A stretch of 64,000 nucleotides of DNA from Nitrosopumilus sp. (GTDB lineage: Archaea > Thermoproteota > Nitrososphaeria > Nitrososphaerales > Nitrosopumilaceae): the NCBI RefSeq assembly GCF_025698945.1, contig NZ_JAILWM010000001.1, forward strand, positions 434,001 to 498,000, written 5' to 3'. The notes below the pieces were generated by a model. The model did not search any database. It was not told where the DNA came from and saw nothing but the letters and a program-made list of their open reading frames with translations. Position 1 is the first letter of the stretch. The number at the start of each line of letters is the position of its first letter. Shown piece by piece: positions 30,345-46,915 of this stretch. The position numbers and the translations under genes were made by a program.

Positions 30345-31082
30345 TCAAGGCATCAATCGGGGATGCAGTAAATGCAATCCATTTGAATCTAAATCAATTG
30401 GATGAATTTGTTCACTGTGTTTTATACCGCGCATTTTTGTTACTTGTATTGTTCTCTCCATAGTATCTGCTTTTCTTGTATGTCTAAGATGAATGATTCC
30501 AGAGGTTACAAACCACTCTACAGGATAATCATCTCTTTCAGAATATTCTGAGAGAATCAAACTAGTAACACCAAAGTTTTCTAAAGCTTGAATCATTCCT
30601 TGCAATCCCTGTCGAACATAGAATTTATCAGAATACTGCATTGCTAAAATTGTAACAGAATCAATTACGATCCTTTTAGCTTCAACACGTTTGATACTAC
30701 TTAGCAATAATTTTGTTAAATGCTCAAATGGTAATTGTTCACCCCTATACAGAGAATCATCTTTTCCAATTAGATCATCTTGAATTTTAAATGGTCTTGC
30801 ATCGATCATAAGGATCTTGTCTTTTGAAATTAAATCATCAAAGTCCCAACCATATGATTTACAGTCGTTTTTTATCTCATCGATATTTTGAGATAGCGTG
30901 ATATAGACTCCAGGCTCACCAAAGTCTTTAGCGCCTGAGTATAGATATTGTAATCCTAGTGTTGTTTTCCCACTGCCAGGCGGTCCTGATATTGAAACAG
31001 AACGGCCTGACTTGAATCCTCCTGATATTACAGAGTCCAACCCTGGTATTCCAGTTTTTACTTTAGAATATGTAGAGTCCAT
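30345..31082 (-). CDS. KaiC-like RecA-superfamily ATPase
   Basis: The 245-residue single-domain protein opens KTGIPGLDSVISGGFKSGRS, with Walker A GPPGSGKTT (about residues 34-42) and a Walker B strand RIVIDSVTIL. It is an archaeal KaiC/RadA-type signalling ATPase rather than the archaellum component ArlH by context alone, though ArlH is in the same superfamily. It sits 77 bases downstream of a TrmB-type regulator, so a regulatory role in the pilus locus is plausible. Confidence 0.75.
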   Translation of the reverse strand: MDSTYSKVKTGIPGLDSVISGGFKSGRSVSISGPPGSGKTTLGLQYLYSGAKDFGEPGVYITLSQNIDEIKNDCKSYGWDFDDLISKDKILMIDARPFKIQDDLIGKDDSLYRGEQLPFEHLTKLLLSSIKRVEAKRIVIDSVTILAMQYSDKFYVRQGLQGMIQALENFGVTSLILSEYSERDDYPVEWFVTSGIIHLRHTRKADTMERTIQVTKMRGIKHSEQIHPIDLDSNGLHLLHPRLMP

Positions 31083-31159: not shown

Positions 31160-32011
31160 TTACAGATGAATGTTTTTTGAATTTACCCACAAAGATTCAA
31201 AGAGTAATTTCATTGCATATACTAAAGAATTGGAATTAGTCCACATTGCAAAAGGTTCCTCTGGAGAATTTGCATTTTTTGTAAAGAACAACATTTCCCC
31301 ATCATCCTTTAAAATAAAACACAGATGGTTCTCAATGTCTGCACTAAGTTTTTTGATATTTTTTCGCTCTAAATCATCAAAGATGTATGCCGTTTTTTCT
31401 GAACATGCACTTAATAATCTAAATTTTTGTTTTGACTTTACAAACGATTCTAGAAAATCACCATGGTATAATTTTAGATAATCTTTTTCAGACCCTAAAA
31501 TTAAAAATTCATCTTTGTAATTATCAGTCATTTCAGTAATTTTTGATTGTATTTGATTTGAGCCTTGCAACATTTGGAATTTTTCTTCGACATCATCACG
31601 AATTATATCAAATGTAGGAATATTTTTCCATAATTCAGATAATCCTTTCTCCATTTGTTCAAGTGACTTTACTCTTTCTTTTTCAGAATTTACTAAAATC
31701 CATATTGCTTTCTCCAAAGGTAACGCAGTAAATTGAATAGGATGTTGGAATGTTGCCGAAACAATTCCTTTGTTTTGTAATGCAGATAGTAAATGATATG
31801 TCTCGGTTCTTGGTAGTTTTAGAGCCTTACATACTTCTGGAGCAGTCTTTGCACCATATTTTCCAAGATAGATAAAGACCTTACTTTGATTTGATGTCAA
31901 ACCATATTGAGATAGTTCGGTTTGAATTTTTTCAATAGATAACTTGTACTCATACATTTGAGAGTCAGGTGTAGAGTCAAACACGGATGTTTGTGATGTT
32001 TCTTTTGTCAT
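31160..32011 (-). CDS. TrmB-family transcriptional regulator (TrmB1)
   Basis: The 283-residue protein has an N-terminal winged helix (about 30-95, LTSNQSKVFIYLGKYGAKTAPEV and LPRTETYHLLSALQ), a coiled-coil linker and a C-terminal ligand-like domain (about 145-283). It is a close paralogue of the regulator at 46974; the recognition-helix region PRTETYHLLS is identical in both. Together they flank the pilus-like gene cluster. It probably controls that locus or the adjacent KaiC-like gene. Confidence 0.8.
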   Translation of the reverse strand: MTKETSQTSVFDSTPDSQMYEYKLSIEKIQTELSQYGLTSNQSKVFIYLGKYGAKTAPEVCKALKLPRTETYHLLSALQNKGIVSATFQHPIQFTALPLEKAIWILVNSEKERVKSLEQMEKGLSELWKNIPTFDIIRDDVEEKFQMLQGSNQIQSKITEMTDNYKDEFLILGSEKDYLKLYHGDFLESFVKSKQKFRLLSACSEKTAYIFDDLERKNIKKLSADIENHLCFILKDDGEMLFFTKNANSPEEPFAMWTNSNSLVYAMKLLFESLWVNSKNIHL

Positions 32012-32140: not shown

Positions 32141-32785
32141 TTACACGCCTATTTTTATTATATTTTCTACAGGTACTGCTGTGCCTGAGTAGATCGATTT
32201 ATGTAAGAATTTTTTACGAACTCCTGCAGATTTCAAAAAGGCAATTTCCAAAATATTCTCTTCGCCTCTAAATACAATACACCCCATATCGCCTTTGAGA
32301 CCTTTCTCAATTACATTGTTAAGTGTAGACAAGGTTCTTCGTAGATTTTCTAGTCTGGCTTTTAGTTCATCAATGGCTTTAAAATACAATTCAAGTTCGC
32401 CTTTCAAACCAATTCCGTTATATACTAATATTTTATCCTCGAGATTAAACCATTTATCACTAGTTTTTCTTTTTGATTTTTTTTTCTTTTCTCGATTTTT
32501 CTTCTCATCAGACTTTTTTACGTTGGTTTCATTATTTGTATCATCTACAGAATCATCTGATTTTTCATCAGATTGTTTTTTTATGATTTTTTGATCAGTT
32601 TCTCCAAGTTTTTCTTTTAATGCTAAAAACTCCGGATCATCTGAAGAAGATTCTTCATTAACTCTGATTTTTTCACCCAGTAAATTGGAATATTCTGCAA
32701 TAATGTTTTCTGTATTTTCAATTTCTTTTTCTAAATTTCTTTTCAGAGCATTGACAGAATTGAATCTCTCAACAATGTTTTTCAT
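32141..32785 (-). CDS. Coiled-coil hypothetical protein, 214 aa
   Basis: N-terminal coiled coil (NALKRNLEKEIENTENIIAE), a disordered Lys/Ser/Asp-rich middle (about 70-110, with a KKNREKKKKSKRK cluster), a second coiled coil (about 125-160) and a small beta C-terminus (MGCIVFRGEENILEIAFLKSAG). No known family. It starts 2 bases after the upstream gene, so the two form an operon next to the pilus cluster. Confidence 0.55.
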   Translation of the reverse strand: MKNIVERFNSVNALKRNLEKEIENTENIIAEYSNLLGEKIRVNEESSSDDPEFLALKEKLGETDQKIIKKQSDEKSDDSVDDTNNETNVKKSDEKKNREKKKKSKRKTSDKWFNLEDKILVYNGIGLKGELELYFKAIDELKARLENLRRTLSTLNNVIEKGLKGDMGCIVFRGEENILEIAFLKSAGVRKKFLHKSIYSGTAVPVENIIKIGV

Positions 32786-32787
32786 AT

Positions 32788-33339
32788 TTATTCCTCATCA
32801 GTATTAATGATTGTTGGAATATTTTCTTTTAATTGATTCAGTGTTGATAATTGTTTTGTTGCAGTACGCAGGAATGTAATTTTTTCTGCAAGATATGCTT
32901 TTTGGGCTTTGATTAATTCTAATAGTTGAGGAGTCACATATTCGACAATCTGTGTGATGACTTCCGGATCATAATCTGTGAATTTTTTAATTTCTGTTTT
33001 TCCATTTGATAAAGTTAAAATTAATTTTAAATCAGGAAGCATCGTGACTCTTGAATCAGTAGGCAAATTGAAAATTCCTGGATGTACAGAAGTAGAGAAA
33101 GACAAGAAACTAGTAATTACCTTTAATGCATTATGTAAATCTCCAATCACAGTGGTTTTTTGATCCTCTAACTCGTAAATCTGCAAAGACTCCTCCATCA
33201 GAGTATTTAGATGTGTGAGTGTTTTTGCATTTACATCAGTAGGATCTACTGCAACAGATGTTTCTGCTAAAACTTGAGGTTCTGTTGTTTCAGGTGCATT
33301 TACATCTGATTGCTTATCTGATGATTCTGTCGATTGCAT
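32788..33339 (-). CDS. Hypothetical protein, 183 aa
   Basis: A disordered N-terminus (first 30 residues) precedes a mixed helical/beta domain (a DLKLILTLSNGKTEIKKFTDYD strand pair) and a helical C-terminus (LIKAQKAYLAEKITFLRTAT). Not recognised. First gene of a two-gene operon with the 214-residue coiled-coil protein; divergent from the pilin pair at 33.6 kb. Confidence 0.55.
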   Translation of the reverse strand: MQSTESSDKQSDVNAPETTEPQVLAETSVAVDPTDVNAKTLTHLNTLMEESLQIYELEDQKTTVIGDLHNALKVITSFLSFSTSVHPGIFNLPTDSRVTMLPDLKLILTLSNGKTEIKKFTDYDPEVITQIVEYVTPQLLELIKAQKAYLAEKITFLRTATKQLSTLNQLKENIPTIINTDEE

Positions 33340-33598
33340 GATAAAATCTGTTTAAAAAATTAGATTAAAAGTTGTATGTACCTTAATGTTACAGATCTCA
33401 AATTCACATACATGCACAATTTTTGTGCCTAATGGATTTAATGAATCTGGGAATAACATAGGCAATAATCCATTTTGCCTTAAATTAACATTTAAAGTTC
33501 AAGCCAATTTGCAAAATTTAGTCGTCATCAGTCATCAATGTAAGTAATTTACACATACACACGGTTTGATAATAGCTAAATCAATCAGGTTTAGAGAA

Positions 33599-34051
33599 GT
33601 GGTTAAGGTTAAAAAAAGAAGAGCGTTAAGTGGCATTGTTACAGGTGCAATACTGCTATCTGCCGTTTCTGTGATGGGCATTACAATTGTCATTTGGGCA
33701 AATTCTAATTTACAAACACATCAAACAGAATTAGATCAGATATTTGCAGATAATCACAATAAAATCAATGAACGAATTATCGTGGAACACATTTGGTTTG
33801 GAAATACAGGGCCCTCAATTAATATCACCATGAGCAATACTGGAACATTGGGTCTTAATGTGACTGAAATTAAAGTTCAAAATACAGATTCCGGACAGTA
33901 TTCTATATTTTCAAAAACAGATGCAGGAATTCAAAAAGGTAAAAGTATGTCGTTTAATGAAACAATAAATTGGATTTCAGATGATCCATATGAAATTTCA
34001 ATTACTACTAACAGGGGAAATATATTCACGGCAGAGGTATTAGCACCATGA
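33599..34051 (+). CDS. Short type IV pilin-like protein (pair 1)
   Basis: An archaeal class III signal peptide: basic stretch KKKRRA, cleavage expected before LSGIVTGAILLSAVSV, then a 20-residue hydrophobic helix and a beta-rich domain of about 110 residues. I prefer GTG 33599 (MVKVKKRRALSG); the open frame begins at TTG 33566. The next gene overlaps by ATGA. A homologous short pilin heads the pair at 59.3 kb. Probably a minor pilin or stalk component processed by the peptidase at 46202. Confidence 0.75.
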   Translation: MVKVKKRRALSGIVTGAILLSAVSVMGITIVIWANSNLQTHQTELDQIFADNHNKINERIIVEHIWFGNTGPSINITMSNTGTLGLNVTEIKVQNTDSGQYSIFSKTDAGIQKGKSMSFNETINWISDDPYEISITTNRGNIFTAEVLAP

Positions 34052-35709
34052 AAAGTAGGAGAGGGTTAAGTACAGTAGTAGGAGCAGTATTTTTTGTAAT
34101 TGCTGCAACCACTGTGATCACATACATTTCCTATAGCATGAATTCCATTGATGAGTTTGCACAATCCGTAATTGTTTCAGAAGCTGAAAATATCAATAGA
34201 GGGATGGAAGAGATATCCATTTCCCAAGCAACAATAGTTGGGGGAGAATTTAATGCAACAGTAATCAATAAAGGATCATTACCAGTACAATTAACTCGTT
34301 TATGGGTAGTTAATGAAGAATCAGGGGTAAACAGCAAAGCAGATTTGGATATAAGAATTAATCCTGGAAATCAAAAATACAACATTGGTAAAGGTACAGG
34401 AATTACAGCTGATTCAACTACAAGTTATACTCTCAAAGCAGTTACCAGTAGAGGAAATATTGCAACATTTTCAGTATCTCCAGATGTTTCAACTCAAACA
34501 CAGTTAATAATACCTGCACAGGTTGCACCAGAAGAAGAATTCAGAGTAGTTTCGATTATTACAAATAACAGCACATCACCAAATAATATTGCTAATTTAG
34601 TACCCATAATTGCTAATAATGGATCTCTTACACAAATACAAGCAATTAACCCGCCAAGTGTTGCTGTATTACCTCAGGGAAATTCGGTTACTTTTACTTC
34701 TTCATGGTTAGCACCAGAGACTACTGGAGTTATAGAGTTTATGGCAAATTATACAGGGGCTCCTTCAGGAGCAGGAGTCAACTCAACCCTATCTGTTGCA
34801 ATTTCAGCTGAAGCAGAAGCTGCAACACAATCACAATGGTCACAAGCTGCAAGTCGTGTAGGGATTTTGATCAGTGGAATTCCAAATCCCGTCAGTTCTG
34901 CTAATGCCGATGAATGGGGGAAGTATGGTATGGGCATCATAAATCCTTTGGATAGAGAGGTAGAAGTATATGCTGTAGGTATCACTTTTTCAGATGCTAC
35001 GTTAACTCATAAACTTATTCAAGCAAGCATAGATGAAGGATGGGAAATTAGAGATTTGGGAGGTAGAACATCTGTAATTTTGGAAAATGGAGACACGCCT
35101 GTAACTATTCCGGAAAAAAGTGTAGGACAATTTCAGGTAGAATTTGATATAGATAAATCAGATAGTATTGAAAGTGACATTATTATTTCAGCTCTTACAA
35201 GTGAAGGAAAACTTAGTGTTCGCTATTCCATAATGACATCAAATCTGGCAGAATACCCATTGATGAATGTGTTTTATAGCACAGATACTATAGATCCTGT
35301 AGGTAGTTGGACGTATATTATAGAAGGAATTCCATCAGGGATTAATCAACAATTTAATGCAACCATTCAAAATGGTGGAGGGGCTGGTTTAAACTCTAAA
35401 GCTATGTTACTTATTTTAGTGCCAAATGGTTTTACTAACGTTCAACATGTATCTAGTGCAGGTTGGGATATTAGTAAACCAATTAAAGAAAATCCAGATG
35501 GCAGTCATATTATAGAGGTCATAACAACAGCAAATGTTGGGTCAGGATCAGTCAAAACATACAAGTTTTCTGCAGATACGCCAATTGTAACTGATGACAA
35601 ATTGTATGTGTTTCAAACAACTACAGTATACCCTACTTTCTGTTGTGAGGCTAAAAAATCGCAATTAGTATCGGCATTATCTGAAGCAGGTGTTGAAGTA
35701 ATCCCATAA
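34048..35709 (+). CDS. Long type IV pilin-like surface protein (pair 1)
   Basis: Starts MKSRRG with cleavage expected before LSTVVGAVFFVIAATTV, a hydrophobic helix (about 8-28), then roughly 520 residues of beta-sandwich modules rich in Asn, Ser, Thr and Gly. Length and modularity suggest a tip or adhesive pilin rather than the main subunit. Its first 90 residues match the LamG-containing protein at 56401-58818. Overlap with the short pilin gene by 4 bases implies coupled expression. Confidence 0.75.
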   Translation: MKSRRGLSTVVGAVFFVIAATTVITYISYSMNSIDEFAQSVIVSEAENINRGMEEISISQATIVGGEFNATVINKGSLPVQLTRLWVVNEESGVNSKADLDIRINPGNQKYNIGKGTGITADSTTSYTLKAVTSRGNIATFSVSPDVSTQTQLIIPAQVAPEEEFRVVSIITNNSTSPNNIANLVPIIANNGSLTQIQAINPPSVAVLPQGNSVTFTSSWLAPETTGVIEFMANYTGAPSGAGVNSTLSVAISAEAEAATQSQWSQAASRVGILISGIPNPVSSANADEWGKYGMGIINPLDREVEVYAVGITFSDATLTHKLIQASIDEGWEIRDLGGRTSVILENGDTPVTIPEKSVGQFQVEFDIDKSDSIESDIIISALTSEGKLSVRYSIMTSNLAEYPLMNVFYSTDTIDPVGSWTYIIEGIPSGINQQFNATIQNGGGAGLNSKAMLLILVPNGFTNVQHVSSAGWDISKPIKENPDGSHIIEVITTANVGSGSVKTYKFSADTPIVTDDKLYVFQTTTVYPTFCCEAKKSQLVSALSEAGVEVIP

Positions 35710-35826: not shown

Positions 35827-36288
35827 ATGACAAAACTAAGTTTAACTGTAATTGCAATTATGTCATTATCAGTCATGATGATTGGTTCGTCCATGACAAG
35901 TGTAGATGCTGCAAAACAGAGTACAGGGCCAGTAGTGGATCCTGAATGTGCAGAAACAGACGGTGGTTTTTGTAATGTGGTTTATAGTAGTCTCTGTGGA
36001 ATACAAAGTATTTCTGGTAAAGTATCATTCATAAATACACTTACCACATGGGATGGTCAAAATGAGAAATACAAACTTGTTACCGAAGCTGTTGGCACAT
36101 TGTATGAAACTGGTACAGGTTTTTCAACCCCAATTGGATACATTGATGATTCAACAACAACACAAGGATTCTATGAGGGGAAAGGTGCACAAGTTGTTAA
36201 ACAAGTTTTATCCGTTGACTGTGTAAATGGAGAAAAAGACACTGTTGAGAAAATGGTGTTAGTAGACAATCCAGGCAAAAAGAAATAA
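35827..36288 (+). CDS. Small secreted protein, 153 aa
   Basis: A signal peptide (residues 1-28, ending VDAAK) is followed by a domain with four Cys (PECAETDGGFCN, SSLCGI and SVDCVNG) that could form two disulfides, and a Lys tail. It lies in the pilus cluster with its own TATA region. Function unknown; an extracellular accessory factor is a reasonable guess. Confidence 0.6.
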   Translation: MTKLSLTVIAIMSLSVMMIGSSMTSVDAAKQSTGPVVDPECAETDGGFCNVVYSSLCGIQSISGKVSFINTLTTWDGQNEKYKLVTEAVGTLYETGTGFSTPIGYIDDSTTTQGFYEGKGAQVVKQVLSVDCVNGEKDTVEKMVLVDNPGKKK

Positions 36289-36385: not shown

Positions 36386-36832
36386 TTATACGTTTGATTG
36401 AGTCATGTCTAGATTCTCAACCGGTTCACTTTCGATTTCAGTACTAGTTTCATCCATATCTTCAGTCTCAGTCATCATCTCTTCAGATAATTCATCATCA
36501 ACTGCTGCGCTCATTGCACCAATTTGATGAGGAGGACAAGAAACGTTCAGAGTCTTGGACAGTAAGAAGAATGTTGGGAATAATTCTTGATAAATTACAG
36601 TCAAAATTTTTGGAATGCCGTCATCATCATTTTCCAAAATCTCATCTCTTTCCATAGAATCACCAGAAATACGAGCAGTCCCTTCAATAGATAATCTCAC
36701 ATTTTTAGGATTAGATAATGCAGTGAATTTGTATGTAAAAACAGATATCTCATCGTCACTTTCGACCTCTTCAATATGGGCATCAACATCATATTTTTCT
36801 AATTGAGATAGTTTTGGATCATTTTTACTCAT
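36386..36832 (-). CDS. Hypothetical soluble protein, 148 aa
   Basis: I place the start at ATG 36832 (MSKNDPKLSQLEKYDVDAHI); the frame opens 11 codons earlier. A beta-rich domain ends in YQELFPTFFLLSKTLNVSCPPHQ, which vaguely resembles SecB-fold chaperones (weak), and an acidic Glu/Thr tail follows. It is the only minus-strand gene inside the pilus block. If SecB-like, it could hold pilin or adhesin precursors before export. Confidence 0.5.
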   Translation of the reverse strand: MSKNDPKLSQLEKYDVDAHIEEVESDDEISVFTYKFTALSNPKNVRLSIEGTARISGDSMERDEILENDDDGIPKILTVIYQELFPTFFLLSKTLNVSCPPHQIGAMSAAVDDELSEEMMTETEDMDETSTEIESEPVENLDMTQSNV

Positions 36833-36901
36833 AGATATAGAATTTAGATCGATCTGTGCTTTCAATGTAAATAACGATGCCTGAAATATTCATTAAACAA
36901 T

Positions 36902-36964: not shown

Positions 36965-37987
36965 TTGGAGCAGAAAAATGAGTTCAAAAATGGAATAAAT
37001 CGTTCTAAAATTAAATCAGAAAAACTAAATCTTTCAGTTTCTATTTCAAAACTCAAAAAAGATACCCATAAACTATCCAAAATGTATGATTTTAAAAAAT
37101 ACATGGATTCAGCAGATATGAAATTTCCTCCAGAGATGGAAGAAATGATTCCAAAAGATACCCCTCCATATCTTGATAATGGAGAGCATTATGTGGAAAG
37201 AATTGGCAGAGCATTGAAATTTTTCAAACAATGTGCATTGATTGGTCCGAGTGGAACAGGAAAAACACACATTGTTTATCTTGTTGCAGAATTAGCCGGA
37301 CTTCCAATGTGGGAAATCAATTGTGGTTTGGCAACATCAGTGTTTGATCTATTTGGTAGATATGTAGGATTGGGAAAAGAAAATTGGATTGATGGATTAA
37401 TTACAGGTTGGTGTAGAAAAGGAGGTATATTGTATCTAGACGAGGCAAACATGATGAAACAAGATGTTGCAACTAAACTCAATCCACTACTTGACCAGAG
37501 AGGCCACATGGTATTAACTGAAAAAGACAGTGAGATCATTCACAGACATAAACACGCATACATGATAATTAGCATGAACCCTGTATCCTCTGAATTTGCA
37601 GGTACAAAGCCAATCAATGCAGCCATGAGAAGAAGAATGAGTGTTTGGCTTAATTTTGATTACATGAGTGTTGGAGACAATGTAGATGACAAAGAAATCC
37701 AAATGGTAAAAGAGAAAGGAGGAATCTCTGCAATTGATGCAGAAAGTATTGTAAGGATAGGTGCAAAATTAAGACAAGAATACAAGATGGGCGACATCCC
37801 ATATGGACCATCAATTGGAGATTTGGTAAACTGGGCAAAGATATGTGCTGATGGTGCATCAGTTGCAGAAGGAGCAGATGAAACTTTGGTTCCTATGACA
37901 AGTGATGATCCAGAAATTCAAGACGAAGTAAGACACATCATTAAGAGAGTACTAGAAAGTCAAGCAGCATCAAGAAAGAAGGTGTAA
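36965..37987 (+). CDS. MoxR/CobS-type AAA+ ATPase
   Basis: The 340-residue protein (start TTG 36965; ATG at 36979 is out of frame, in-frame ATG at 37082) has Walker A GPSGTGKT (94-101), Walker B GILYLDEA (154-161) and a sensor-1 ISMNP. An Arg-rich AMRRRMS follows in the position of the Arg finger. The MoxR, CobS and GvpN families power metal insertion or protein remodelling with a VWA partner. The VWA gene follows 25 bases downstream. Their place inside a pilus cluster is unusual. Confidence 0.8.
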   Translation: MEQKNEFKNGINRSKIKSEKLNLSVSISKLKKDTHKLSKMYDFKKYMDSADMKFPPEMEEMIPKDTPPYLDNGEHYVERIGRALKFFKQCALIGPSGTGKTHIVYLVAELAGLPMWEINCGLATSVFDLFGRYVGLGKENWIDGLITGWCRKGGILYLDEANMMKQDVATKLNPLLDQRGHMVLTEKDSEIIHRHKHAYMIISMNPVSSEFAGTKPINAAMRRRMSVWLNFDYMSVGDNVDDKEIQMVKEKGGISAIDAESIVRIGAKLRQEYKMGDIPYGPSIGDLVNWAKICADGASVAEGADETLVPMTSDDPEIQDEVRHIIKRVLESQAASRKKV

Positions 37988-38012
37988 AGAACTGAAAGAA
38001 ACCATACAAGTT

Positions 38013-39563
38013 ATGGCATCACAAATATTTTTTGATATTTGTGAAAAAAAACCTATTGATGTAGATGTGTTTTTCTCAGATAAAATATATTTTCCAAAAA
38101 TAGAATATGAACCTAGGACAACGGTGTATTTTCCAATACCGCGAGAGGTTAAAGGAATGCAGATCATTCAAAATAGTATATTTTCAAACCTTGAAAAATA
38201 CCAAGATTCAATTTTTGCATTATTTTTTGCATCAGTTTGTCATCTGGCAGGACATGTAAAAGTCACTGATTTTAAAATATACAAAGAGTGGATGAGTGGA
38301 AAAAACAAACCTAGAGCATATGAAACAATAGAGTTTATAGAAGATATCAGAGTAAATGATTTCTTAAAAAATCATTTTCCAGAATATTATTCAGAGATAA
38401 TCAAGATTCAAGAAGTTTTTGATATCATTAATGAAAAATATGAATCTGAAGATTTTAGAAAACTTGCAGAAAAAACATTTGTGAGAAAATACCTTCAAAA
38501 TATGGCAAAAGAAAAAGAAGCAATCATAAAGAGAATAACAAGCTTAGAACCCAAGAATCCTGAGAAATTCCTTGAAATAGCAGATATAGTGTATAAATCC
38601 TTAAACAAAATAGAATTTCAAAAATACCCATTTACTGATCATTATTCCCATCCAGAAAAAATTTCAAAATGGTATCAAAACCAATCGATACAAACGGAAG
38701 GTAGATTTGAAGATATTGTAAAAAGATTTGAAGAAATATGGTTTGTTCAAATAAAACAAAGAGCTAAAATGAACAAAAAATATGATAAAATTGTTGAGGG
38801 ATTAGAGTTTGATAAAATAGATTTTGCACCTGAAAACATAGGAGAATATTTGAGATTAAAAAATGCAACACATATGTTTTTGAAAAAAATGTCTAATCAA
38901 ATGAAGATGGTAACAAATATTCAAGATGAAGGTGTAGCTGATGATATGGGGTTGTTGGAAATGCAAGCTGCAATTCAATCTGTTGCATCTGAAAATCCAA
39001 GCATACAAATTTTCGAGCAAGATGATGTGAGAAAAGTTGAGGAAGCATGGTCAATTATTGTAGATACTAGCAGTAGCATGAAATTGAAGTTTAATGAAAT
39101 GAAAAAATTTACAATGTGTCTTGGAGAAGCAGCTCATGCAGTAAATGCAAAAAATGGCAAATGGGGATTTTTCACATTTAACAATAATTTTACCATCATA
39201 AAAGATCACGATCAAAACTTTGATCAAAGTGCAAAAGCAAGAGTTGGGGGAATTGAAATCAATGGTCTATCATTTATTGCAGATGCAGTGAAATTGTCAA
39301 TGAGAATTTTAGAAAAAGAGATCATCGAGAGAAAATACATTTTTTTGGTCACAGATGGACAAGCATTAGGGACAATTGATGCAGATTCAAAAATGAGGAG
39401 TGCTGTAGAAGAAGCAAGAAAAAAAGGAATCAACATAGTTGCAATCGGAATTCAAGATGGAAATACAAAAATTTTCTCTAGGTGTATACCATATGAAGGG
39501 TTGAGAAAAACAATAGCAAAATTTCTTAATGCATATCAATTGCTTTCTGAAGATGGAATATGA
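38013..39563 (+). CDS. VWA-domain protein, partner of MoxR ATPase
   Basis: The 516-residue protein has a helical N-terminal region (about 1-340) and a C-terminal von Willebrand A domain with MIDAS motif DTSSS at D351. A conserved TDG (FLVTDGQALG) and a VAIGIQDG strand follow. This is the CobT/NorD-like partner that pairs with CobS/NorQ ATPases. It may clamp a client for remodelling, possibly a pilus component. No signal peptide, so it acts in the cytoplasm. Confidence 0.8.
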   Translation: MASQIFFDICEKKPIDVDVFFSDKIYFPKIEYEPRTTVYFPIPREVKGMQIIQNSIFSNLEKYQDSIFALFFASVCHLAGHVKVTDFKIYKEWMSGKNKPRAYETIEFIEDIRVNDFLKNHFPEYYSEIIKIQEVFDIINEKYESEDFRKLAEKTFVRKYLQNMAKEKEAIIKRITSLEPKNPEKFLEIADIVYKSLNKIEFQKYPFTDHYSHPEKISKWYQNQSIQTEGRFEDIVKRFEEIWFVQIKQRAKMNKKYDKIVEGLEFDKIDFAPENIGEYLRLKNATHMFLKKMSNQMKMVTNIQDEGVADDMGLLEMQAAIQSVASENPSIQIFEQDDVRKVEEAWSIIVDTSSSMKLKFNEMKKFTMCLGEAAHAVNAKNGKWGFFTFNNNFTIIKDHDQNFDQSAKARVGGIEINGLSFIADAVKLSMRILEKEIIERKYIFLVTDGQALGTIDADSKMRSAVEEARKKGINIVAIGIQDGNTKIFSRCIPYEGLRKTIAKFLNAYQLLSEDGI

Positions 39564-39712
39564 TGGTAAAAATCAAATTATTGTAAAAATTACGGATAAA
39601 TCAGCCATATTAAAAAATCTCAGGCATGAATGTATAAAAATTACTTATCTGTAATTCAAAAAAATTACATACGCGACTAGATATGATATTAATTAAAAAA
39701 GACAATAATAAA

Positions 39713-40345
39713 ATGAAAACCAAACTAAGCAAAAAACGTGCAATCAGTACAGTGCTCACAACAGTCATCATATTGGTGTCTTCTGTTGTACTTGGTTCAG
39801 GAGTTGTTTTGTATGGTACCAGTCTTTTCCAAGGAGGTACTCAATCAGAAGCAATTTCAGTTTCAGGTTCAAAAATGTGGGTTCATGATACTGCTTCAGA
39901 AGGTTTAGCTTGGGGTGCAGCAAAAATCAGAAACACGGGTGATAAAGTAATTTCCGTAGATACCATACAGGTTAGAGGAACAAACGTCCCATTTAGTCAA
40001 TGGTATCCAGACACTAGTGTTAATGCAACATTATTCCAGCAATCATTGATTCATCCCGGATGGTCAGGAACAGGTGGAATGTTGGATGCTACAGGAGCAA
40101 CACAGTGTGCAGTTGCCAGCACGGTACAAATTGATTTGACAGGTGATGACGTAGATACATCCTCAATCTGTGCTAATGCAGCAACAGGCCCAGTAGGTTT
40201 ATCACCAGGTAGTTCAGCTATCATATACTTTAAGCTGACTAATGGTACCATCACATCACTAGACTCTGGTGCAAGTACAACTCTAAACATATTTGCAGGA
40301 AAAGCAGGCGCACCACAAAGCATAACTGTACAAGGTCAATCCTAG
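39713..40345 (+). CDS. Type IV pilin, candidate main subunit
   Basis: I place the start at ATG 39713 (MKTKLSKKRA; the frame opens 10 codons earlier at ATG 39683). Cleavage is expected before ISTVLTTVIILVSSVVLG; the hydrophobic helix is followed by a compact Gly/Ser/Thr-rich domain. At about 210 residues, lying directly before the assembly ATPase with its own promoter, it is the best candidate for the major filament subunit. This follows from context, not from direct evidence. Confidence 0.75.
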   Translation: MKTKLSKKRAISTVLTTVIILVSSVVLGSGVVLYGTSLFQGGTQSEAISVSGSKMWVHDTASEGLAWGAAKIRNTGDKVISVDTIQVRGTNVPFSQWYPDTSVNATLFQQSLIHPGWSGTGGMLDATGATQCAVASTVQIDLTGDDVDTSSICANAATGPVGLSPGSSAIIYFKLTNGTITSLDSGASTTLNIFAGKAGAPQSITVQGQS

Positions 40346-40461: not shown

Positions 40462-40480
40462 CTAAAACTGATTGAGTGTA

Positions 40481-42016
40481 ATGGGGAAAAAAGACAAGGA
40501 GCAAGGATTAGAGACATTTCTTAAAAGTGAATTTTTAGGAGAATTAAAAAATGAAACACCAACAGGGTCCATCCTATTAGAAAAATACCCATTAAAAGCA
40601 CCTTTTAGTTATGCAAACATCATACAAAACCAAGAAACAGGTAGTCTATCATATCAAATAGATGAGACCAAATTAAGTCAATCAGAGCAAGTAATTTACA
40701 ATCAATTATACCAATTAATTGAAGAAAATATAGACTCTCCAGAAAATATAGAAGAAAATTTTGGATTCATGTCTTTTGTAAATAAAATACTCAAAGAAAA
40801 TGAAAAACTATTCCTTGATCAACCAAAAGGCAGTATAGAGAAAGTAAAGTATTATCTAGAAAGAGACATTGATGGTTTTGGAGAAATTGACCCACTCATG
40901 CAAGATCCAAACATAGAGGATGTCAGTTGTAGTGGAATTAATTCGCCAATCTATGTATGGCATAGAAAATATGACAGCATTCCATGTAATGTATCGTACC
41001 AAGATGAAAAATTAAATTCATTTGTGTCTCGAATTGTATTTAGAGCAGGAAAGCACATTAGTTCTGCATATCCAATTTCAGATTTAGCATTACAAGGAAA
41101 TCACAGAATTTCAGTGTTATACCAAAAAGAAGTGACTCCTAAAGGAACCAGTTTCACAATAAGAAAATTCAAACAGGATCCATACTCTATTGTAGATTTG
41201 ATAACATTTGGCACCATTAGTGTTGAAATTGCAGCATACATGTGGTTGCTAATGGAATCAAAAATGTCAATAATGGTTATCGGGTCTACAGGCAGTGGTA
41301 AGACTACCATTCTTAATGCCATTACAGGATTGATTAATCCGGATTACAAAATTTTTTCAGTAGAAGATGTTTCTGAAATTAACATCAAACATGAAAACTG
41401 GTTTAGTCTAATTTCCAGAACTGGTTTTGGCAGTGAAGGAGAAGGGGAGATTGGATTATATGATTTGATCAAATCAGGTGTAAGACACAGACCAGATTAT
41501 ATCATAGTAGGAGAAATTAGAGGTTCTGAAGCATATGTTATGTTTCAGGCAATGGCTACAGGTCACGGGGGATTGTGTACCATGCATGCAGATAGTTTAG
41601 AATCTGCAAGCAAAAGACTACAACAAAAACCAATGGACATACCTGCATCATATATGGCATTGATGAATTGTGCAATAGTGATTAGAAGAGTCAAAGGCAT
41701 TGATGGAAAAGGAGTGAGAAAAGCAATTTCCATTCAAGAGATAAAAGATGCTAACACATACCATGATGCTTTCAAATGGAATCCAAAAGCAGATTATTTC
41801 AATCCAGCATTGGAAGATAGTGAAATGTTACGCAGAATTTCAGAACAGTCCGGAAGAGATATGGAAGAAATTTTTTCCGAATTGAAGCGAAGAGAGACAA
41901 TTTTAAAATGGCTTGTTCAACGAGGAGTTAGAAGATATGATAAAGTTGCAGAGACCGTTGGAAAATATTATAGAGATCCAGATGCTTTGATGAAAGAAAT
42001 AGAATTTAGTGTATGA
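40481..42016 (+). CDS. Type IV pilus/archaellum-like assembly ATPase (ArlI/TadA family)
   Basis: I place the start at ATG 40481 (MGKKDK); a TTG lies three codons earlier. The 511-residue secretion ATPase has Walker A GSTGSGKT (about 268-275), an Asp box, and the Walker B-like PDYIIVGEIRG with a downstream His box (GHGGLCTMHAD). It powers extension of a filament through the membrane platform encoded next. The ArlI and TadA subfamilies cannot be separated by eye. The 8-base gap to a ArlJ-like gene is almost a fusion. Confidence 0.88.
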   Translation: MGKKDKEQGLETFLKSEFLGELKNETPTGSILLEKYPLKAPFSYANIIQNQETGSLSYQIDETKLSQSEQVIYNQLYQLIEENIDSPENIEENFGFMSFVNKILKENEKLFLDQPKGSIEKVKYYLERDIDGFGEIDPLMQDPNIEDVSCSGINSPIYVWHRKYDSIPCNVSYQDEKLNSFVSRIVFRAGKHISSAYPISDLALQGNHRISVLYQKEVTPKGTSFTIRKFKQDPYSIVDLITFGTISVEIAAYMWLLMESKMSIMVIGSTGSGKTTILNAITGLINPDYKIFSVEDVSEINIKHENWFSLISRTGFGSEGEGEIGLYDLIKSGVRHRPDYIIVGEIRGSEAYVMFQAMATGHGGLCTMHADSLESASKRLQQKPMDIPASYMALMNCAIVIRRVKGIDGKGVRKAISIQEIKDANTYHDAFKWNPKADYFNPALEDSEMLRRISEQSGRDMEEIFSELKRRETILKWLVQRGVRRYDKVAETVGKYYRDPDALMKEIEFSV

Positions 42017-42017
42017 T

Positions 42018-43466
42018 ATGTCATTTTTAAAAAAACATGAAGATGCAGATAAAAAGAAGAAAGCTAACAAAAAAATTGAATCAGAATTACCATTTTTTAT
42101 AACTATTGTTACATTATTAGCAACAAGTGGGCTAGGTCCATATACAATTTTTACAAAAATTAAGGATTTGGATTTACTTCCAAATGTGAGAATAGAATCA
42201 ATTAAAATTCTTAAAAAAATAGACATTCTTGGAAAGGATCCTCTTGTAGTAATGGCTGAAACTAAAGAAAAGGGGATATCTAGTTTTGGAGAATTTCTAA
42301 GTGGGTGGGTATCATCCATTCAAAGTGGTGGAGATGTAGTAAGTTATCTCAAATCAAAAATGGATAGCGCATTTGAAGTTTATGAAAGTCAACAAAAAGA
42401 ATCTGCAAACAAAGTACAAACATTAGTTGAAACATACATGACAATGCAAATAGTGATCTTGGCAATATACATTATAGTTACTGCAACATCTACAGGGGGG
42501 GTAGGAACTCAACCAGGACCAGATGATATTGACCCACTTTATCTAGTAATTATGTTGCCTCCAATCATCACAACATTATTTTTAATGCTTGCAAGAAAAC
42601 TAAACAGGGCAAAAATTAATGAGCTTGATTGGAAAAAAATTCTAATTTTTGGGGTTCCCGGTCTTGGCGGAGCAATAATAATCAGTTACCTAAATTTGCT
42701 CCCAGAATATGATTTGTATATTTTTGCAATTGTATTAATCGTATCTGCATTATGGCCAGCATTAAAATTCAAAAATAAATACAAATTTGCATTAGATGCA
42801 GAAGGTGCAACATCGCAAATAATGAGAGATGTAGCTGAAGCAAGAAAAGCAGGGTTGGGTCCTGAAAAATGTGTAATACGAACAGCCAAGAGAAAAGACT
42901 TTGGATTATTTAATACTGTAGCTAATGGTGTTGCAAATAAGTTAGAGTGGGGAATGACATTAAATGATATTTTCAATTTTATCAAAAAAGAAACTAGTGA
43001 TTTTCAAATATTGATAAATTTCAAAGTATTGTTTGAAATAATTTCCGCAGGAGGAGGAAATGTAAATACTTTGATCACATTAGCTGGAGTTTCAGAAAAA
43101 ATGAGAAACATAGAGGCATCAAAACGAGAAATGTTAAAACCATATGTTATGGTAGGTTTTATGTTAATAGCAATCACAGGATTTACCACACTACTTGTAA
43201 TTGATTCATTGACAAGTTTGGGAGGACAGTTGGAAACAGATGATGCAAAAAAAAATATTTTAGAAGCAGATTCTAAATCTAGATTCAAATTATTAGGATT
43301 GTCAATTTTGATACAATCTTGGATAGCAGGATTGTTTTTAGGTAAAATCACCACAGGGAATTATACAGGAGGATTCATGTATTCTGTATTTCTAGTCACA
43401 ATATCTCTTATGGCAATTATAATAATACAGTTGAAATTATTTAACGTAGCATCTGTTTTCGGATAA
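42018..43466 (+). CDS. Membrane platform protein (ArlJ/TadC family)
   Basis: ATG 42018 (MSFLKKHE) follows the ATPase stop by one base; a GTG at 42009 overlaps it. Two T2SSF-type domains flank membrane helices (about 140-160, 170-195, 215-260 and 370-480). The cytoplasmic EKKGISSFGEFL and MRNIEASKREML segments are characteristic. It anchors the ATPase and forms the base of the filament. At 482 residues its size suits archaellar or archaeal pilus platforms. Confidence 0.85.
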   Translation: MSFLKKHEDADKKKKANKKIESELPFFITIVTLLATSGLGPYTIFTKIKDLDLLPNVRIESIKILKKIDILGKDPLVVMAETKEKGISSFGEFLSGWVSSIQSGGDVVSYLKSKMDSAFEVYESQQKESANKVQTLVETYMTMQIVILAIYIIVTATSTGGVGTQPGPDDIDPLYLVIMLPPIITTLFLMLARKLNRAKINELDWKKILIFGVPGLGGAIIISYLNLLPEYDLYIFAIVLIVSALWPALKFKNKYKFALDAEGATSQIMRDVAEARKAGLGPEKCVIRTAKRKDFGLFNTVANGVANKLEWGMTLNDIFNFIKKETSDFQILINFKVLFEIISAGGGNVNTLITLAGVSEKMRNIEASKREMLKPYVMVGFMLIAITGFTTLLVIDSLTSLGGQLETDDAKKNILEADSKSRFKLLGLSILIQSWIAGLFLGKITTGNYTGGFMYSVFLVTISLMAIIIIQLKLFNVASVFG

Positions 43467-43515
43467 TTGTATGTATTGTAATGTTTCATACTGGTCAATA
43501 TATCCAAAAAATTAA
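43465..43515 (+). promoter_or_regulatory. Promoter element, copy 2 (with dyad GTATG...CATAC)
   Basis: Matches the element at 40411-40461 at 46 of 51 positions. Its dyad arms are GTATG and CATAC: the arms differ from copy 1 but remain complementary. It starts at the 3' end of the platform gene and precedes the surface protein gene, which supports a start at GTG 43526. Confidence 0.6.
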
Positions 43516-43525
43516 GAATATTTGC

Positions 43526-46117
43526 GTGTTAAAGGTCCTATTTGTAATAATATTGATGACTGGTAGTTTATTCTTACCAGTTAACGCTCAGACCACATCT
43601 GAATTTGGATATAAATTACATCCAGAAAAAATTCTAGAGAATACAATTGGGGATTTACAAGTTTATGTAACATCCAATAAATTAATGGTACCTACTACAA
43701 TAAAAAACTTAACAGTCATTAGTTCAAACACAGACATTATACAAATAGTGGAAGTTTCTGAAGATTCGGATTCTTTTATTAAAAATATCAAAATAAAAGC
43801 GTTAAAACCAGGCATTGCAACTATTGGTTTAGCTGCACCTGGATTTGCATCTAAAGAAATTTCAATTCAAGTTTACAACAATAATAATTATCCTACAAAA
43901 ATCATGATGAAGACAACTCCAAATCAATTTTCAGTCGATGGGCCAAAATACGGATTTGTTGCAGTTGAATTATCCACAACAGGAGGATTGCCAACAGTTG
44001 CATTAGAGGATGTCACTGTAACAATTCAAACACCAAATACAGATGTTATCAAATTAAGAGATTCTGAGATTACAATTAAGCAAGGAGAATATTTTGGGAT
44101 TACTGAATTTGATATTGTTGGTTCAGGAGATGCAATAATTTTTGCAGAAACTAACGGAATGAAGAAAATTAGTGAAATAATATCGGTTTCAGAACCTAAA
44201 GGTCCATTACAAATTCAGCTTTCAGTAATTCCGGATACTTTTAGTAGTTATTATTCTGCAAAAGGTTTTGCCATATTACAATTAGTAGATAGTGAAGGAA
44301 TTCCAGTCATGGCAGAAGAAGACATCTATCTTGAATTAGATGTGGATAATCCAGATACATCCAAAAACACAAGTACAGATTTTAATGAAGTGGTATTTGA
44401 TGAAAAGAAACTAGTGATCAAAAAAGGAGAATATTCTACATTTACCCAATTTTCACCAAGACCAAATTTAGCAGATTTCACTAGTGAAAATGAACAAGTA
44501 TTCCAAATGTTTGTATCTGTAGAAAACTATCTTGCTCGTGGCGATTCATTCACTGTAATACATGATGAAATCGGAGCATTAGAAGGGGCAGGTCCATCAA
44601 TTACAGAGGTATTGCCATTTTTGACTACAGGTAAAGAAGAGATCATAGGAGTGACTTATTTTGAAACAGATATTGAGGTATCTAGAAGGGCAGGAACCTC
44701 AAATAATAGAGAAACTGTTACAATTACAGTACCTGTCACTGCACAGAAAAATTATGAGTTGAGTATTTCGTCTTCAGATTCAAATGTCGTAAATCCCATA
44801 AACCCAATTATGGAAAAGGGGAAGAATGCGGTATTAGTTACAGGCAATACAGGAACAATGGCACCTGATGAATCTATAGAATTGTACATTAGAGATAATG
44901 ACGGAATTAAAACAGTTATTACAACACCCGATGGACCTATTGAGGACGATATTTCATTAACAATTGAGTCACTTATTCCAATGATTTTAGTTGGAAAGGA
45001 ATTCCCACTGCTTGCATATTTGTATGAATCTGCAGGTGAAGAAGAATCAGTTTCAACTACCGATGAAGATGAGATAGATAGTAGGTTGGGACCAACCCAG
45101 TTTGTAAAAAATGGTATTCTGTCATTTTCTGCAAATGAATTCATAAACATCGAATCATCAAATGTAGAGAAAAATCAAGATTATGTTTTAACATATCCAA
45201 TGGTTGAAGCAGTTGGAACCAGTTCATTAAATGGAAAAATTGGTAAGTTTTCTGGTTCAATGGATGTTACAAGTTATACTACAGACCCCACAACCATCTA
45301 TTTAGGATATATTGATAATATTTTGATCACAGATGGAAACCTAGCTACAGTTCAGTTATTGGACTCTGTGGGAAATCCAGTATATGCTAAAAAAGATACA
45401 ATTTTAGAATTAGTATCAAATGATCAAACAATTTTAAAAACACCAAACCAAATAACAATCAAAAAAGGAGAATACTTTAACACATTTGAATTAGAAACTT
45501 TGAAAGAAGGAACTGTAGAGATGACAGTTTTATCAAAAGACTTACCATTATCAAAATACAGCATTAGTATTATTGACTTAACTCCAGTATTATCACTAAA
45601 TCTAGAAGGAAGTATGAACTGGAATGAAAGAATTGAAGCAAAATTATCCGTATCAATTCCTGAAATTAAGACAACTCTTTCAGGATTTCAAGTTGAGTGG
45701 ACAACAGAGGGGGGCGAAGTAAAAACAGCAGACTCAGTAACCAATAGTGAAGGTATTGCAATATTGAACATAATTGCAAATGATAAGGAAACCGTTACAG
45801 TATCTGCAAAAGTATCTGGGAATAATCTTGATTCAGCAACAGCATCAAAAACAGTCCAGATATTAAATAAGCCCTCAGTCATAGAAAATCCCGAAACTGA
45901 TACGGTTAAGGAAGAATCCTCTATAGGGGAATTAAATTTCGATACAACCCAAATAGGAATGATTATCATACCAATCATAATTGTCGCTATTTTCTTGTTT
46001 CTAAAAAAGACAGATAGATTAGGATTAATTACTGAAAAAATGTCTTTAGAAAATTTAGAGATAAGTGATAAGATTGAAGGCATTAAAGAAAGAATTTCAG
46101 ATATCAAAGATAGATAA
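43526..46117 (+). CDS. Large anchored surface protein with Ig-like modules
   Basis: I place the start at GTG 43526 (MLKVLFVIILMTG, clean signal peptide ending NAQ). The frame opens at ATG 43481, but that codon falls inside the duplicated promoter element. The mature part has several beta-sandwich modules rich in Val, Ile, Thr and Ser. A C-terminal membrane helix (IIIPIIIVAIFLFL) and a short cytoplasmic tail follow. It could be an S-layer-linked adhesin or a pore/guide for the pilus. No close family is recognised. Confidence 0.65.
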   Translation: MLKVLFVIILMTGSLFLPVNAQTTSEFGYKLHPEKILENTIGDLQVYVTSNKLMVPTTIKNLTVISSNTDIIQIVEVSEDSDSFIKNIKIKALKPGIATIGLAAPGFASKEISIQVYNNNNYPTKIMMKTTPNQFSVDGPKYGFVAVELSTTGGLPTVALEDVTVTIQTPNTDVIKLRDSEITIKQGEYFGITEFDIVGSGDAIIFAETNGMKKISEIISVSEPKGPLQIQLSVIPDTFSSYYSAKGFAILQLVDSEGIPVMAEEDIYLELDVDNPDTSKNTSTDFNEVVFDEKKLVIKKGEYSTFTQFSPRPNLADFTSENEQVFQMFVSVENYLARGDSFTVIHDEIGALEGAGPSITEVLPFLTTGKEEIIGVTYFETDIEVSRRAGTSNNRETVTITVPVTAQKNYELSISSSDSNVVNPINPIMEKGKNAVLVTGNTGTMAPDESIELYIRDNDGIKTVITTPDGPIEDDISLTIESLIPMILVGKEFPLLAYLYESAGEEESVSTTDEDEIDSRLGPTQFVKNGILSFSANEFINIESSNVEKNQDYVLTYPMVEAVGTSSLNGKIGKFSGSMDVTSYTTDPTTIYLGYIDNILITDGNLATVQLLDSVGNPVYAKKDTILELVSNDQTILKTPNQITIKKGEYFNTFELETLKEGTVEMTVLSKDLPLSKYSISIIDLTPVLSLNLEGSMNWNERIEAKLSVSIPEIKTTLSGFQVEWTTEGGEVKTADSVTNSEGIAILNIIANDKETVTVSAKVSGNNLDSATASKTVQILNKPSVIENPETDTVKEESSIGELNFDTTQIGMIIIPIIIVAIFLFLKKTDRLGLITEKMSLENLEISDKIEGIKERISDIKDR

Positions 46118-46201: not shown

Positions 46202-46915
46202 ATGTTTGAAACTTTATTTGATTTTCAGACAATAAGAATAATTTTAGCATTAATCATGTTGATTTTAGGTTCAATAGTAGATATTTGGAAAAGAGAAATT
46301 CATGATTATTATTGGATAGGTTTTGGAGGTGCAGGAATTGTACTTGCATTTCTAAATCCAAATATCATGACACAGTTACTAACTATAGGAATTGCATTAA
46401 TCATAGCACCATTTGTGATTGTTATTTGGAGAATAGGGTTATTTGGAGGTGCAGATGCATTTGCATTAATAGCATTAGCAGTGATAGCGCCAATGGCTAC
46501 AATAACAGATAACCAGATATCTCCTTTTACAACTTTGTCTAATGCCGCATTGTTATTTATCATACCATTTTTATTCAATTTGTTTAGAAACATAATTTTG
46601 CAATTAAGAGGAAAAAATATTTTTGAGGGATTTGATGAATCATTCTCCAAAAAAATAATAGCATCATTTATGGGATATAAGTCAAAAAATCCAAAATTTG
46701 CATTTAGTATAGAAAAGATGGAAAAAGGTAAGAAAAAATTAGATTTAGCAATTCATCATGCAGAAAATCAAGAATTCTGCACCACACCTAATACATGGAT
46801 TACTCCGGGAATACCATATCTACTACTAATTGCAGGAGGTTTTATCATCCAATTAATCCATGGAGATATCATACTAAACCAGTTTTTTGATTCAGGATTT
46901 CAGTTACCTATATGA
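46202..46915 (+). CDS. Archaeal prepilin/prearchaellin peptidase (FlaK/PibD family)
   Basis: The 237-residue membrane protein has the A24 aspartate pair: D27 in GSIVDIWKR and D85 in GLFGGADAF (GxGD-like). It cleaves class III signal peptides before the hydrophobic helix, so it should process the pilins at 33.6, 34.0, 39.7, 56.4 and 58.9 kb. The C-terminal membrane helix (TPGIPYLLLIAGGFIIQLIH) is complete. It is 84 bases downstream of the large surface protein gene. Confidence 0.85.
   Translation: MFETLFDFQTIRIILALIMLILGSIVDIWKREIHDYYWIGFGGAGIVLAFLNPNIMTQLLTIGIALIIAPFVIVIWRIGLFGGADAFALIALAVIAPMATITDNQISPFTTLSNAALLFIIPFLFNLFRNIILQLRGKNIFEGFDESFSKKIIASFMGYKSKNPKFAFSIEKMEKGKKKLDLAIHHAENQEFCTTPNTWITPGIPYLLLIAGGFIIQLIHGDIILNQFFDSGFQLPI

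Follow-up and report, generated by a model that had tools for sequence, protein, structure and literature searches.

A MoxR–VWA gene pair with a predicted SecB-fold neighbor accompanies one clade of archaeal type IV pilus ATPases

The window, by which we mean the whole stretch of 64,000 nucleotides of Nitrosopumilus sp. DNA analyzed here, holds a type IV pilus (T4P) locus in which the genes of a MoxR AAA+ ATPase and a VWA protein adjoin. The features of the locus are listed by window position and strand; MoxR, the VWA protein, P36, p32141, and p32788 form what we call the module.

30345..31082, − strand: KaiC-like ATPase, a frequent neighbor of the module
31160..32011, − strand: TrmB-type regulator, a frequent neighbor of the module
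32141..32785, − strand: p32141, charged and probably coiled-coil, function unassigned; module member
32788..33339, − strand: p32788, function unassigned; module member, in two copies in some Bathyarchaeia
33566..34051, + strand: pilin-like protein with a class III-type N-terminus, conserved in the loci
34048..35709, + strand: large pilin-like protein with a class III-type N-terminus, conserved but variable in length
36386..36865, − strand: P36, predicted SecB-fold protein of 159 aa with a disordered acidic C-terminal tail, divergent to MoxR
36965..37987, + strand: MoxR AAA+ ATPase of the CbbQ/NorQ/GvpN group, TTG start, 340 aa
38013..39563, + strand: NorD-like VWA protein, 516 aa, with a C-terminal VWA domain (Pfam VWA)
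39683..40345, + strand: pilin-like protein with a class III-type N-terminus, directly 3' of the VWA gene
40472..42016, + strand: T4P assembly ATPase (T2SSE), member of the clade found together with the module
42009..43466, + strand: TadC/T2SSF pilus platform protein
43481..46117, + strand: large secreted or membrane-anchored Ig-like protein of the pilus cluster (Big_1 match below the cut-off)
46202..46915, + strand: prepilin peptidase (A24)

The MoxR and VWA ORFs lie on the + strand 25 bases apart, as the initial annotation described them, and the pair does sit between pilin genes, with two further genes (35827 and 36386) on its upstream side. The three pilin-like proteins were recognized from their sequences, and the position of the gene at 39683 is kept in most Nitrosopumilaceae loci, the gene being duplicated in some. 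The ORF at 35827-36288 encodes a small protein with a signal-peptide-like N-terminus and had no match in the other loci examined. Genes for CheY and a histidine kinase also lie beside the locus. We considered an archaellum and rejected it in favor of a pilus locus, as the matches fell far below the curated NCBIfam cut-offs: the ATPase at 40472 scored 370 bits against the FlaI/ArlI model (cut-off 550), the protein at 30345 scored 24 bits against the ArlH model (cut-off 215), and that at 33566 scored 16 bits against the ArlF model (cut-off 110).

MoxR gave Pfam matches to AAA_5 (2e-19) and CbbQ_C (2e-12), both above the cut-offs, and among proteins of solved structure midasin, CbbQ, and NorQ are closest to it by sequence; the VWA protein matched PF00092 (4e-10). 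The Walker motifs and the VWA MIDAS had been annotated as intact, and conservation among relatives agrees with this. MoxR has the Walker A motif GPSGTGKT at residues 94-101 and the Walker B motif LYLDE at 156-160, and its catalytic residues K100, T101, D159, E160, N205, and R222-R224 (Walker A/B, sensor 1, and arginine finger) are invariant among 20 sequences. In the VWA protein, D351, S353, S355, and D448 of the MIDAS are invariant among 61 sequences, in which position 420 is S or T. Of the NorQ helix-2-insert motif GRXLL/IXXXXT, MoxR keeps G131 and R132, the remainder reading YVGLGKEN; since the motif is only partly kept, we did not file the protein as NorQ itself. The loci L098-L105 encode a longer MoxR of ~430 aa, the extra length being a C-terminal extension in one aligned relative (L052), and in genome G079 (L047:7018-8029) two overlapping ORFs make up the gene, owing to a frameshift in either the genome or the assembly.

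The genome of the window provides its own controls. It contains a second T4P ATPase (C1:555188; 41% identity), and the 20-kb region around it (locus L064, C1:546000-565999) gave no match to this MoxR or VWA; TadC matches in this second locus are split over two ORFs. It also contains a second MoxR gene (L063:9656-10450, on C2), 28% identical and located away from pili. In genome G046, which has no T4P ATPase match, a relative of this second MoxR adjoins a gene for a 520-aa VWA protein (L065:7553-9910). A paralogous pair without pili therefore exists, but it belongs to a different subfamily. The 520-aa VWA gene (seen also at L066) is present in many Nitrosopumilaceae, including genomes without a T4P ATPase match.

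To quantify the linkage within the class, we searched the same sample of 150 genomes for the VWA protein (E < 1e-28) and for the T4P ATPase, taking as clade ATPases those with at least 50% identity to the one in the window. The VWA protein was found in 38 of the 150 genomes, 34 of which had a clade ATPase; the other four (G018, G119, G142, and G144) had only more distant T4P ATPases. Seen from the side of the ATPase, 34 of 35 genomes with a clade ATPase had the VWA protein, and the sole one among the 112 VWA-less genomes to have a clade ATPase, G091, has it as a fragment. None of the 46 genomes without any T4P ATPase match contained the VWA protein. The initial annotation had named a wide occurrence of the pair without pilus genes as one outcome that would speak against a pilus role, and this was not what we saw. 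When the VWA and ATPase genes share a contig, they are ~1-17 kb apart; in the other cases the assembly is in many pieces and the two genes are on different contigs. The order MoxR–VWA–pilin–ATPase–TadC–Ig protein is kept in most Nitrosopumilaceae loci; in G021, the two halves of the MoxR–VWA/ATPase order are ~17 kb apart.

Across the phylum, the module follows one T4P ATPase clade, and the sister clade occurs with or without it. Among 299 phylum genomes, many of them fragmented, 45 contained the module MoxR, one as a fragment (G357). Both the clade ATPase and the module were present in 43 genomes, the ATPase only in 2 (G250 and G390, where no module was detected), the module only in 2 (G307 and G354), and neither in 252. 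Fisher's test gave 5e-47 for this co-occurrence, a value that is inflated by the relatedness of the genomes and thus not a true probability. Per genome, the counts rest on scores for the five best first-look candidates, and a few genomes may therefore have a clade ATPase that was overlooked. In G354 (L206:12684), a single-contig assembly with MoxR and VWA present, the module-linked T4P ATPase is shortened to ~221 aa, and the protein is full-length in G225, from the same genus. A maximum-likelihood tree of 72 ATPases put nearly all of those linked to the module, and of the unlinked ones from genomes containing it, in one clade of 37 rows (support 100/99), in which G250 and G390 were the only module-minus genomes; the deeper linked ATPases of L059 and L062 fell outside it. 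The sister clade of 30 contained 19 ATPases from module-containing genomes and 11 from module-minus genomes. Within family f13, the clade ATPase was present in 15 of 16 genomes with the module versus none of the 7 module-minus genomes with a different T4P ATPase.

The relatives found by profile search include Bathyarchaeia, in which the MoxR identity is 57-61%. In these, a T4P ATPase is often absent within 10 kb of the module. T4P ATPases were found in 20 of 21 Bathyarchaeia genomes tested, mostly at 46-55% identity, and in the fragmented assembly of G164 (L133) the module was present and no T4P ATPase was found. The clade ATPase lies ~7-23 kb from MoxR in ten Bathyarchaeia genomes and elsewhere in the genome in several, for example in G360.

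Three small proteins recur with the pair. In the 33 loci with full context, the genes found within 7 kb of MoxR included VWA in 33, p32788 in 32, p32141 in 28, and P36 in 24. The initial annotation had brought up P36 only as a possible pull-down partner, yet it is a conserved member of the module. P36 adjoins the pair in all Nitrosopumilaceae loci and in many others, and in L098-L105 its gene lies between those of VWA and MoxR in the same direction as VWA. A P36 profile matched 40 genomes of the class sample, comprising 37 of the 38 with the VWA protein plus G063, G069, and G148. The match in G063 is a contig-edge fragment. In G069 and G148, P36, p32141, and p32788 lie inside a T4P locus where MoxR–VWA was not found, so that the trio can go with a T4P locus by itself, and MoxR–VWA is combined with it in other loci. 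Additional P36-like genes of the SecB-fold family occur near the module in L061 (17711-19528), L128 (6808-8643), L113, and L146, those of L061 and L128 beside KaiC-like genes.

The linkage of the pair to pili has been in print since 2016. Makarova, Koonin, and Albers reported that thaumarchaeal T4P loci of subclade 4A have two genes "strongly linked" to them, one for a vWA protein (arCOG02900) and one for a GvpN-like ATPase (arCOG00441), and proposed a regulatory role by analogy with ArnB (PMC4858521). Our MoxR–VWA pair, matched to theirs by description alone, very probably represents the same genes. A MoxR–VWA pair dedicated to pili is well supported by linkage and co-occurrence, but the linkage itself, the main point of the initial annotation, was already known; the role in building or disassembling a filament that the annotation raised is a candidate function. 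A later survey distinguishes four T4P types in ammonia-oxidizing archaea, and its main text is silent on MoxR (PMC7554672); a literature search combining MoxR, type IV pilus assembly, and von Willebrand returned nothing. For SecB together with MoxR and vWA, the search returned only a paper on conflict systems, where SecB appears in another setting (PMC7159879). What appears to be new is the larger module and its SecB-like member, not the link between the pair and the pilus.

Searches of Pfam, PDB sequences, and the SecB profile (PF02556) gave no match for P36, and only its predicted fold was informative. An AlphaFold2 model built from 55 sequences (pLDDT 80) consists of four strands, a short helix, and a long helix, followed by the disordered acidic tail. 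The 23 best PDB matches of the model were all SecB, the SecB-like chaperone Rv1957, or two streptococcal proteins that we take to be SecB-fold proteins, with a best E value of 2.8e-4, TM scores of ~0.4-0.5, and probabilities of 0.99-1.00. Thioesterases were the next family and clearly weaker. As PF02556 gave no match, we filed P36 as a SecB-fold protein rather than as SecB, and a chaperone function is putative, suggested by the modeled fold. Archaea have no SecA (PMC4361572), and an archaeal SecB homolog, MJ0357, has been reported, as cited in the same article.

The predicted structure of the VWA protein (AlphaFold2, pLDDT 87.5) points to NorD. Its five best PDB matches were the VWA domains of NorD in NorQD complexes, followed by MIDAS domains of midasin; ArnB came at rank 43. 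By sequence, too, the VWA profile finds NorD and CobT. The modeled N-terminal domain is helical with conserved H77, H81, and D111, and a helical, finger-like stretch with invariant G313 and Q322 precedes the VWA domain at ~287-343. NorQD complexes have a finger ahead of the VWA core that inserts into the pore of NorQ; the C-terminus binds to the post-sensor-1 loop, and the MIDAS presumably binds the target (PMC13036017, PMC9976466). A NorQD-like layout is plausible for MoxR–VWA, though only part of the NorQ insert motif is retained.

Taking sequence, predicted structure, and genomic context together, we lean toward viewing MoxR–VWA as a remodeling motor of the NorQD/CbbQO type that is dedicated to one kind of archaeal T4P, a reading that we consider moderately probable. 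MoxR would form an AAA+ hexamer on which the VWA protein docks via a finger and its VWA domain; the VWA protein would bind an acidic site on the target through the Mg-MIDAS and transmit the ATP-driven twisting. The likeliest target would be a cytosol-exposed part of the pilus machine (the assembly ATPase, the TadC platform, or prepilins), alternatively a complex of such a part with P36, p32141, and p32788, and P36 may hold or deliver unfolded or hydrophobic clients. Hexamer formation, docking, the target, the direction of the activity (assembly, disassembly, or regulation), and the role of P36 are all what we infer from the evidence above. A more tentative proposal, one that could well prove wrong, is that P36 and the NorQD-type AAA+/VWA pair form a joint chaperone-remodeling machine whose client is the T4P machine rather than a metalloenzyme, giving an archaeal SecB-like protein a dedicated pathway.

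MoxR–VWA could instead be a regulatory switch for pilus expression or activity, with a possible coupling to KaiC, TrmB, and chemotaxis signaling. This is what the 2016 authors proposed (PMC4858521), and the genes for KaiC, TrmB, CheY, and a histidine kinase beside the locus are consistent with it, as are the CheR-, CheC-, CheD-, and CheB-like genes, recognized by eye, that lie just upstream of MoxR–VWA in the Bathyarchaeia loci L106, L141, and L142. The chemotaxis-type genes and the KaiC and TrmB neighbors keep a regulatory role alive, but NorD and midasin are the solved structures closest to the VWA protein by fold, ArnB following only at rank 43, the catalytic residues are invariant, and a SecB-fold partner suggests handling of proteins. 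On balance, we regard a switch as rather unlikely. Still less likely is that the pair loads metal into an enzyme or a pilus-linked metalloprotein and lies near pilus genes for other reasons. The closest characterized relatives act on metalloenzymes (PMC13036017); NorQD, CobST, and CoxDE insert metals. We keep this possibility because SufS/IscU-type genes, again recognized by eye, lie directly upstream of MoxR in L108, L116, L119 (6552-9521), L121, L122, and L130, but this neighborhood, the only hint of a link to metals, is confined to one lineage of Bathyarchaeia. What the module is coupled to is a clade of T4P ATPases, and no metalloenzyme gene recurs among the conserved neighbors in 19 Bathyarchaeia loci. 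A metalloenzyme partner elsewhere, which the initial annotation had named as a second outcome against a pilus role, was not seen. A conflict or defense system of the MoxR–vWA ternary type parked in the pilus locus would share the MoxR–vWA core and a third protein (PMC7159879) but is highly improbable, as there is no large VMAP or iSTAND component, the third gene encodes a 159-aa SecB-fold protein, the VWA protein ends after its VWA domain with no effector domain, the composition is conserved, and PADLOC gives only weak BrxF matches to the AAA+ core.

Our preferred reading, a remodeling motor dedicated to the pilus, would matter in several ways. Little is known of how the cytosol aids or controls archaeal T4P other than through the assembly ATPase and the platform protein, and a dedicated AAA+/VWA motor with a SecB-like partner, if true, would give a concrete and testable answer. 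It would also widen the MoxR–VWA family by a new class of clients and suggest what SecB-like proteins may do in archaea, where SecA is absent.

The pair can be compared with NorQ/NorD and CbbQ/CbbO. As in these, an AAA+ protein with CbbQ_C adjoins a VWA protein, here nearest NorD by predicted structure, and the MIDAS and catalytic residues are intact; the helical stretch of our VWA protein stands where NorD has its finger. In contrast to these systems, no nitric oxide reductase or Rubisco gene is near and pilus genes are found instead, and the helix-2 insert reads GR[YF][VI]GLGKEN where NorQ has GRXLL/IXXXXT (motif from PMC13036017). SecB and Rv1957 share with P36 the predicted fold of four strands followed by helices, whereas P36 is missed by the SecB profile, carries an acidic disordered tail, and belongs to a pilus module. 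The MoxR–vWA ternary conflict systems (PMC7159879) likewise have a MoxR–vWA core with a third conserved gene, but the module has no VMAP/iSTAND protein or effector domains and is found in a pilus context. ArnA/ArnB of Sulfolobus resembles the module in having a VWA protein tied to a T4P-like filament; our VWA protein is structurally nearer to NorD than to ArnB, and ArnAB is located outside T4P loci according to PMC4858521. The pair reported in 2016 is of the same kind, in the same kind of locus and the same lineage, and the accessible part of that article mentions neither a SecB-like member nor Bathyarchaeia for it; the module described here includes a predicted SecB-fold protein and reaches into Bathyarchaeia.
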